Part shown: piece by piece, positions 17,822 through 20,044 of the stretch
How the letters are laid out: every line of letters starts with the position of its first letter
How positions within the stretch are numbered: position 1 is the stretch's first letter
Assembly: GCA_028279365.1 (NCBI GenBank)
Contig: JANQNX010000014.1
Coordinates: 331,921 to 395,920 of the forward strand
Length of the DNA: 64,000 nt
DNA from: Gammaproteobacteria bacterium
GTDB lineage: Bacteria; Pseudomonadota; Gammaproteobacteria; Eutrophobiales; Eutrophobiaceae
Direction of reading: 5' to 3'
The notes under the pieces: generated by a model
Told to the model about the DNA's origin: nothing
Seen by the model: the letters and a program-made list of their open reading frames with translations, nothing else
Databases searched by the model: none
Translations under genes and position numbers: made by a program

Positions 17822-17919
17822 TTTTCGTCCTGCACATTCGCCAGTAACTGTCGAGGTAGCTTTCTTTATTACTGACTATCTGTTTACACTTCGTTCATGT
17901 TATTCAATGAACGAGTGTG

Positions 17920-18282
17920 ATGATAAAAGTCTTCTACGATGGTAAGTGTGGGCTGTGCCGAAGAGAGATTGCGTACTATAAAAAACGTGATACGCAATCG
18001 CTTATCGATTGGATTGATGTCATGGAAGATCGGAAAATACTGCAACAACATCAAATAAGCGAAGCAACGGCATTGAAGCATATGCATGCGTTAATGGAAG
18101 ATGGTCAGTTGGTGAAAGGTATGGATGCGTTCATTGCTATCTGGCAGCGTATTCCTGGTTGGCAATGGGCAGCATCAACCGCAAATGTTAAACCGATTAA
18201 GATACTATTAGATTTGGTTTATGAAGTGTTTGCCTATGTTCGCTTTAAAAGTTATCGGCATTGTCGTATTGCTGGACGGTAA
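17920..18282 (+). CDS. DCC-family (DUF393) thiol-disulfide oxidoreductase-like protein
   Basis: A 120-residue protein of the DUF393 family, whose members start with a DCC or related motif: here VFYDGKCGLCRREIAYYKKRD, with the CGLC pair. A central MHALMEDGQLVKGMDAFIAIW and final RFKSYRH-RI segment also match. The family has a thioredoxin-like look, and a role in redox or membrane quality control has been proposed without proof. It may start at GTG 17917 or ATG 17920. It lies about 100 bases after btaB, and its stop codon overlaps the end of the inverted integron cassette attC. Confidence 0.82.
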   Translation: MIKVFYDGKCGLCRREIAYYKKRDTQSLIDWIDVMEDRKILQQHQISEATALKHMHALMEDGQLVKGMDAFIAIWQRIPGWQWAASTANVKPIKILLDLVYEVFAYVRFKSYRHCRIAGR

Positions 18283-18365
18283 CGCCCGTATTAACGGGCG
18301 GCTCGCCGCGAAGTGATGAGACGTCCCAGCAGCCAAAGGCTCTGACTTGAATTACTTGTTAGGGC
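18280..18365 (-). repeat. attC recombination site of the cassette
   Basis: About 86 bases. On the minus strand the left end reads GCCCTAACAAGTAATTCAAG, matching the common attC start (RYYYAACAAnnnnTTCAAG). The right end reads GTTAATACGGGCGTTA, close to the usual TTnAnnCnGGCGTTR. The interior is GC-rich and able to fold (TTCGCGGCGAG). The stop codon of the cassette gene (TAA, 18354-18352) lies inside the site, as is usual for cassettes. The right end also holds a perfect short hairpin, GCCCGT and ACGGGC, at 18284-18299. Confidence 0.75.
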
Positions 18366-19428
18366 TTTCCAGCCCAGAAAGTTCTTCGACAACACTTACT
18401 CCATACCAGCCATTCGTGATCAGTGCTTGGATGGATGCCAAAATAAGATTGAAGCCAAACTGTAGAAGCTCATAATTCTTAGCCATATCTTCGTCAATAC
18501 GTGGATCAACAGCTGTCCAATTCATTGGGTAATGCACCTTGTATCCCCCGTGAACAATAGAGCTCCTATGATCGTAAAGCTTGCGAAGATTCGTTCTCAT
18601 CCGCTTTTTTTCTCTATCATCTAACTTCAACAGAAGAGATACTCTGTTGACTAGGTTGCTAAAGCCTTCTCCAACACGGGTGCTGTAAATGGATTCCAAT
18701 GCGTGGAAAATCCATACAACAGCGGCTAAATCCCCATCAAGCTTGCAGAAGTGAAGTACCGAGAATAGAGCTTTTTCTATCTGACTTTCTGCGATTTGTT
18801 TAACGCCCAGCCCGAGACCGTTGTACCAGGAAAGAACATCTTCAATATCAATTTCCTTTGCGTAGGGAGACTGGCGCTCAAGTGCCTCATAGAGTGCTTC
18901 TTCGAAGTTATAGCTAGAGAGGAGTAGCCGGTTATCAGAAGACTTTTCGTCTGAAGAGACCCGCAAGTTTAGGAAATCGCAGGAACCGGGATTGGACAAA
19001 TTCATAATGCAGAAGAAGTCGTAAATGTACTTTTCCGCAAAAAACCTTGGATACCAAGCGTACTCTTTGAATTTGTTTTCACCGGTTATGGTGACTTGGA
19101 TTGATACGTTATTTTTATTTTCCGAAGCCAATATGCCGGAAAAAATATCGTCTAGAGGCTCCTTTCTAGTTAATTTTTTGTGGTACAGCTTGTTTATCTC
19201 AGCATGCGCTTCAATATGGGAAAGAGCATTGTGCCAGTCTGCTGTGACTTCGGCTTCACAGCCTAGGTGCTTGTATTGCCTATAACGGAGTAATGACACT
19301 GCCTTTCGCCAAATGGCTAGATCGGCAGCATCAACATGCTCCCAGGATGGGGACTCATTGGTACGCGTGAAGCGGCTTAAAGAGAAGGTAATAGTTTGAT
19401 TCAAATCGCCTATCCTTGTGTGCCCTAA
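18283..19428 (-). mobile_element. Single integron gene cassette in a non-integron location
   Basis: The cassette reads on the minus strand. It begins at a core site GTTAGGGC (19429 down to 19422), has an 18-base leader and one gene, and ends in an attC site whose first 8 bases (GCCCTAAC, 18365 to 18358) are the exact complement of the cassette start and whose last bases are GGGCG followed by TT (18287 to 18281). This is the rule for a cassette excised as a circle: the start of the cassette completes the attC. No integrase gene and no second attC are seen within this window, so the cassette was probably inserted at a secondary site by an integrase acting in trans. Length is 1,146 bases. Confidence 0.75.
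18352..19404 (-). CDS. HEPN-domain protein (ApeA-type C-terminus) carried by an integron cassette
   Basis: A 350-residue protein starting at TTG (19404) with AAGGA eight bases ahead. The C-terminal part reads LRKLYDHRSSIVHGGYKVHY, containing R280-x4-H285, the HEPN catalytic R-x4-6-H motif in the local context (YDhRSxivHG) typical of Apea-like HEPN domains. HEPN proteins are often metal-independent RNases in toxin-antitoxin, abortive infection and CRISPR-linked systems. The N-terminal 250 residues match nothing I know; they hold alternating helices with no membrane span. No antitoxin gene fits in the cassette. Being a cassette gene it should depend on host promoters. A defensive or toxic role is inference. 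Confidence 0.7.
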   Translation of the reverse strand: MNQTITFSLSRFTRTNESPSWEHVDAADLAIWRKAVSLLRYRQYKHLGCEAEVTADWHNALSHIEAHAEINKLYHKKLTRKEPLDDIFSGILASENKNNVSIQVTITGENKFKEYAWYPRFFAEKYIYDFFCIMNLSNPGSCDFLNLRVSSDEKSSDNRLLLSSYNFEEALYEALERQSPYAKEIDIEDVLSWYNGLGLGVKQIAESQIEKALFSVLHFCKLDGDLAAVVWIFHALESIYSTRVGEGFSNLVNRVSLLLKLDDREKKRMRTNLRKLYDHRSSIVHGGYKVHYPMNWTAVDPRIDEDMAKNYELLQFGFNLILASIQALITNGWYGVSVVEELSGLESPNK

Positions 19429-19429
19429 C

Positions 19430-19591
19430 TATATTTTAATAGACACTTTGTCAGATATGTTTATAAGTGTCATAAGTAGACATGATAGAAAACCTCCTTG
19501 TTTCAATAAGAGATAATATAATTTGATTATAGTAAGCCTATATCTAAGGTGTCCACTTGGAGTATAGAGAATACTAATACCGCATCCAAAA
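19430..19591. other. Intergenic segment next to the cassette start
   Basis: About 160 AT-rich bases between the cassette core site and the DUF188 gene. It holds an inverted repeat, GACACTT at 19442-19448 and AAGTGTC at 19465-19471, 13 bases from the cassette border. No gene is seen. It could supply a promoter for the cassette gene. Confidence 0.4.
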
Positions 19592-20044
19592 TCAGTTATT
19601 TGTATCTTTGATAAGAATCTTATCCAGCGTATTCGCAAACTGTTGTCGGTCGCGATGGCTGAATGCATTCGGACCACCGGTATTGACGCCACTGGATCGT
19701 AATGTGTCCATGAAGTCACGCATGGTGAGTCGTGATTTTATATTATCTAACGTATAAAGCTCGCCGCGCGGGTTTAAGGCTTGCGCCCCTTTTTCAATCA
19801 CTTCCGCGGCTAACGGGATATCCGCAGTAATGATAAGGTCACCTTCCTCGACCAGTTTAACGATCTCATTATCGGCCACATCAAAGCCGGCCTGTACGCG
19901 TATGAATTTGATATAGGGAGAGTTCGGAATCGTGAGTGTTTGGTTTGCGAGTAGAGTGGTCGTTATTTGAGTTCGCTCGGCAGCTCTGAACAAGATCTCT
20001 TTAATCACAACTGGACAGGCGTCCGCATCAACCCAAATCTTCAT
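19592..20044 (-). CDS. DUF188 / UPF0178 (YaiI/YqxD) family protein
   Basis: A 150-residue protein beginning [24 protein letters not shown], the diagnostic start of the YaiI/YqxD (UPF0178) family, followed by [29 protein letters not shown] and TRDF-like MRDFMDTLR, then [20 protein letters not shown]. The fold resembles PIN nucleases, with conserved Asp residues, but no activity has been settled. It stands between the cassette and the tetR gene on the minus strand. Length is normal. Confidence 0.92.

Follow-up and report, generated by a model that had tools for sequence, protein, structure and literature searches.

The 64,000-nt stretch of a Eutrophobiaceae genome analysed here (the window) carries on its minus strand a one-gene integron cassette (18283-19428), most probably placed by a now-absent integrase at the attI site of a dispersed, integrase-less Pc-attI platform and encoding a candidate HEPN defence protein. 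The integron as usually described has one integrase gene, one attI, one promoter and one array, whose distal cassettes mostly stay silent; the occurrence in one genome of at least six attI-Pc modules, every one with a first cassette of its own, breaks this rule, and the dispersed integrase-less platform is a more important result than the cassette itself.

The cassette has G|TT at each border (the bar marks the crossover): its minus-strand crossovers lie at 19429/19428 upstream and 18283/18282 downstream, and it extends from the TT after the former to the G before the latter. The minus strand at the cassette start reads ...AAAATATAG|TTAGGGCACAC, with G at 19429 and TT at 19428-19427, and the 8-mer GTTAGGGC of the cassette start is complementary at every base to GCCCTAAC, which forms the R'' box of the attC site (18365-18358), giving the circular complementarity of a gene cassette. 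The attC site (18277-18365, minus strand) contains R''/L''/L'/R' boxes and GTT/AAC cores: GCCCTAAC is followed by a 5-nt spacer, L'' (ATTCAAG, 18352-18346), L' (GTTAAT, 18295-18290), a 6-nt spacer, and G|TTACC (G at 18283), with a hybrid R' at 18277-18283. Both spacer lengths and both L boxes agree with those of true attCs mined for comparison. The stop codon of the cassette gene (18354-18352) falls within the attC, and the end of the attC directly adjoins the TAA stop of a convergent gene for a DCC1-like thiol-disulfide oxidoreductase (17917-18282, plus strand; PF04134).

These borders were examined with a covariance model built from 39 attCs mined beside integron integrases of other gammaproteobacteria, which recovers cassette arrays in its reference loci and was used instead of an earlier home-made scorer that was too permissive on AT-rich DNA. 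The model has a single match with E<=10 in the window (18277-18364, minus strand, 17.3 bits, E 0.018), which is weak when searched genome-wide (E 0.88), owing to poor pairing in the central stem and to an R' that is hybrid with the target. Folding of the single-stranded attC was not decisive, the central stem folding poorly; the attC has no match among the plasmids searched, and Rfam yielded zero matches for the window or for the module described below. As the attC is weak on its own, it is the borders and the upstream module that bear the case. A preliminary description of this DNA had proposed a lone cassette far from any integrase, and both parts are borne out: the borders, complementary 8-mers, enclosed stop codon and model match identify the cassette, and the whole genome contains no gene at the integron-integrase cut-off (TIGR02249), only split, low-scoring tyrosine recombinase matches, and hence no complete integron.

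That description had missed a repeated module of approximately 150 nt directly upstream of the cassette (19425-19580, minus strand), which consists of a promoter (TGGACA-18 nt-TATAAT, 19526-19555, with 11 of 12 consensus matches), a ribosome site and short leader ORF (AAGGAGG followed by MSTYDTYKHI and a stop, 19451-19499), and the crossover TAG|TTA at its end; a DUF188 gene lies upstream on the same strand (19592-20044; PF02639). Both promoter boxes are among the most conserved columns across 29 module copies. Most other copies have a leader ORF of 16-20 aa with a strong ribosome site, the window leader having been cut to 10 codons by a 2-nt deletion, and in ten of the copies examined the TAG that stops the leader has the crossover G as its last base. 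A search for a conserved RNA fold of the module was negative, and the module has no match in the plasmids or phages searched. Excision of module and cassette together as one circle is unlikely in the window, where no GTT lies between the stop of the upstream gene and the module.

At least six copies of the module are present in the genome, each heading a cassette or array. A BLAST search with window positions 19421-19600 identified six strong copies (the window, C3, two on C7 and two on C16), all of which end at ATAG|TTA and are then followed by different genes. On C3 the covariance model delineates eight attCs that lie on a single strand and are accompanied by typical cassette genes, and the module immediately precedes the first cassette of this array. 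Exact complements join the cassette start and the R'' of the downstream attC at the C7 copy at 332 kb (GTTAGGGG and CCCCTAAC) and at the C16 copy at 93 kb (GTTATGC and GCATAAC); at the C16 copy at 69 kb the R'' partner is degraded. A second lone cassette, on C7, is preceded by approximately 130 nt nearly identical to those upstream of the window cassette. Two of these loci have features of their own: the eight-attC array headed by a module copy (C3, ~400000-410515; L082) is without an integrase, and the second lone cassette (C7, 123986-125446; L083) has at least two ORFs, one of which (247 aa) contains LRNRCGHPGKY and may encode another HEPN-type protein, with an attC that likewise adjoins the stop of a convergent gene.

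Across the family, a model of the module matches 28 of 53 genomes, which represent 14 of 18 genera, the maximum being 26 copies (genome G018); outside the family it matches 3 of the 365 further genomes sampled from the class, one of them strongly. This strong copy outside the family (G054, C6, 64259-64395; L270) lies upstream of a ferritin-like gene and has the junction TAGCTA instead of TAGTTA. Conservation across module copies falls off right after G|TTA, and an exact 7-mer complement is present downstream in 16 of 31 copies, compared with 2.7 expected from letter permutations. In G019, a module (C5, 77496-77632, minus strand) lies beside an intact integron integrase gene that starts divergently at 77806; the same divergent layout is found in G029 (C86) and G011 (C1), and in G028 (C110) a module lies beside an integrase fragment. 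By this arrangement the module is identified as the Pc-attI region of the Eutrophobiaceae integron. The upstream border of the window cassette is thus a G|TT core that follows a promoter and shares homology with the attI region of an integron that has intI, and the cassette therefore occupies position 1 of an integrase-less attI-Pc platform, not the secondary site at which the preliminary description had placed it. A search for an empty platform by way of the DCC1-like neighbour yielded none, this gene being without a homologue in the 40 relatives searched. The proposed sequence of events is that an integron integrase, since lost from the genome, inserted the cassette at the G|TT crossover of attI; any cassette in first position should then be expressed, since the platform would provide a promoter and most copies also have a leader ORF with a TAG stop that abuts the crossover.

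The scatter of the modules might instead be the product of decay, each module being what is left of an independent, once complete integron that had moved as a whole before losing its intI, an account to which we give not quite an even chance. Consistent with decay, G018 and the genome studied here have modules but no intact intI, and immediately upstream of 2 of 20 modules in G018 (L251, L263) the final 47-60 residues of an integron integrase (~77% identity to G019 IntI) survive, while a third locus of G018 has an N-terminal integrase piece. Against it, none of the six modules of the genome studied here has a convincing integrase remnant upstream, the promoter and crossover are retained in approximately 29 module copies, and four genomes (G019, G029, G011 and G051) have an intact intI together with further modules elsewhere. 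Decay of several integrons accounts for part of the scatter, and where intI is intact, loading of the modules in trans by one integrase is possible. A distributed integron, in which dispersed attI-Pc-leader docks, up to 26 per genome and each with its own first cassette, are filled in trans or kept after loss of the integrase, is a tentative reading that we likewise hold at slightly under even probability. If it is correct, many first-position cassettes would be expressed at once in each cell, instead of one.

The gene in the window cassette (18352-19404, minus strand) begins with TTG at 19404, preceded by an AAGGA ribosome site, and encodes a protein of 350 aa. A C-terminal HEPN domain (residues ~206-332, encoded at 18409-18789) is supported by an AlphaFold model built from eight sequences (pLDDT 73, pTM 0.79), a first run on a two-sequence alignment (pLDDT 49) having been set aside. 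Comparison of the model with the PDB by VIA-align returned HEPN proteins as all of the top five matches, over residues 206-332 (Z 6.9-8.0), with the HEPN domains of Csm6 (Z 5.3) and RnlA (Z 4.6) at lower ranks; Foldseek found nothing significant for the model in the PDB or BFVD, and the integron cassette HEPN structure 3jrt was absent from the sequence matches and from the fold matches listed. For a helical bundle, a Z of approximately 8 is a modest value that needs support, which is given by a motif of the R-x4-6-H type, R280-SSIV-H285 (encoded at 18550-18567), that is invariant across 8 homologues. This motif closes the third long helix of the bundle (263-286), and the end of a long helix is the position of the HEPN motif (PMC3710099). 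The N-terminal 160 residues are predicted to be alpha/beta and have weak matches only. The HEPN segment with R280-x4-H285 had been recognized in the preliminary description, which had also remarked that the first 250 residues match no known family and that the protein may be a new type; no family among the Pfam, PADLOC and NCBIfam profiles matches it, and none of the eight family members matches Pfam or PADLOC, ApeA included.

Homologues of the HEPN protein are rare, occurring on Alteromonas plasmids (33%), in Photobacterium malacitanum (31%) and on prophage contigs (35-43%). Several of them lie in prophage cargo hotspots alongside defence genes, a setting found for the homologues only. At four prophage loci (L065, L066, L070 and L071) the HEPN gene directly follows the integrase, and at a fifth (L063) it adjoins a phage repressor. 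Of 80 prophages whose integrase is closely related, 79 share the next gene, separated from the integrase by 352-4770 nt of varied cargo, and 3 of the 80 carry the HEPN gene; ten cargo proteins were tested, among them Septu PtuA, an AriA-like ATPase, a type II methylase with helicase, and an NsnA-like protein. The hotspot as a whole (L084-L163, 0.35-4.8 kb of cargo after the integrase) contains many diverse, partly unclassified genes and is promising ground for new defence systems. Elsewhere, the P. malacitanum homologue (L009, 1981-10742) lies within a gene array spaced by repeated elements of 138-174 nt and truncated tyrosine recombinases, adjoining the PADLOC candidate system PDC-M02B, and the homologue of Alteromonas plasmid pMIT1002 (L007, 3274-6903) lies downstream of a divergent non-integron tyrosine recombinase and of a two-gene unit that weakly matches PD-(D/E)XK.

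This pattern of lysogen-encoded defence, combined with the defence cassettes that integrons are known to carry (PMC12409362), makes a candidate RNA-cutting anti-phage protein the best guess for the cassette product. It is unlikely that the protein is not a defence RNase and that its HEPN-like bundle is a non-enzymatic scaffold or serves an unrelated stress function: helical bundles match widely, a Z of approximately 8 alone is not decisive, and the gene has no partner toxin or antitoxin gene, but the invariant R280 and H285 lie where a long helix ends, the five best structural matches are all HEPN, and the neighbours in the prophage hotspot are defence genes. In other HEPN defence proteins, RNA cutting stops growth. 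The two-part cassette product would act similarly: its N-terminal alpha/beta domain would most likely sense phage infection, whereupon the HEPN domain, as a dimer, may cut RNA and halt growth. The trigger, the dimer and the RNase activity are extrapolated from the predicted fold and motif, and the abortive infection suggested in the preliminary description would be the outcome.

Among known systems, attI1 of the class 1 integron with its Pc and ORF-11 (PMC8876359) invites comparison, as it also has an upstream promoter, a short ORF with a strong ribosome site that reaches the crossover, and insertion at G|TT; ORF-11 enhances translation of the first cassettes (PMC8876359). The Eutrophobiaceae module differs in being mostly untied to intI, with up to 26 copies per genome, and in its leader of 16-20 codons in most copies, often with its own TAG at the crossover. 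CALIN and SALIN elements (PMC9024848, PMC12690207) resemble the present loci in that cassettes with an attC occur where neither the vicinity nor the genome contains an integron integrase, but those labels cover attC alone, whereas each single cassette of the present kind comes with an attI and a promoter of its own. No description of dispersed orphan attI-Pc platforms was found in the open-licence literature searched, and such platforms explain some of the "lone" cassettes that are listed as single orphan sites by tools confined to attC. The attG insertions of Loot 2024, as cited in PMC12444791, are similar in that a cassette lies outside the main array, but the target here is a conserved attI-like module and not a loose G|TT. 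Random insertion at an attG, with only incidental similarity upstream, is accordingly very improbable, even though the cassette stands alone at a distance from any integrase and cassettes are known to integrate at attG sites (Loot 2024, as cited in PMC12444791 and PMC12690207), since the 150 nt upstream are a conserved repeat whose conservation ends right after G|TTA and which also flanks the integron integrase in relatives, making the target an attI homologue where an attG is neither attI nor attC. The Delta-attI-type gene cassettes of mobile integrons (PMC12901181), going by their description, likewise place pieces of attI away from intI, whereas the Eutrophobiaceae elements are whole promoter-leader-attI modules, chromosomal and family-wide.

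The cassette product, for its part, has in its predicted model the helical bundle and the R-x4-6-H at the end of a long helix known from HEPN proteins such as HepT, AF_0298, RnlA and Csm6, a group to which ApeA and the "integron cassette HEPN" also belong, and some known HEPN proteins are likewise found in integron cassettes or defence loci (PMC3710099); it differs from them in its N-terminal alpha/beta part and in being encoded by a single gene without MNT or another partner. Anti-phage genes also occur as cassettes in the integron phage-defence cassettes of Darracq 2025, Getz 2025 and Kieffer 2025, as cited in PMC12409362 and PMC12444791. In contrast to these, the candidate HEPN family described here also travels in prophages and plasmids, and the gene thus represents a new candidate defence family common to integron platforms, prophages and plasmids.
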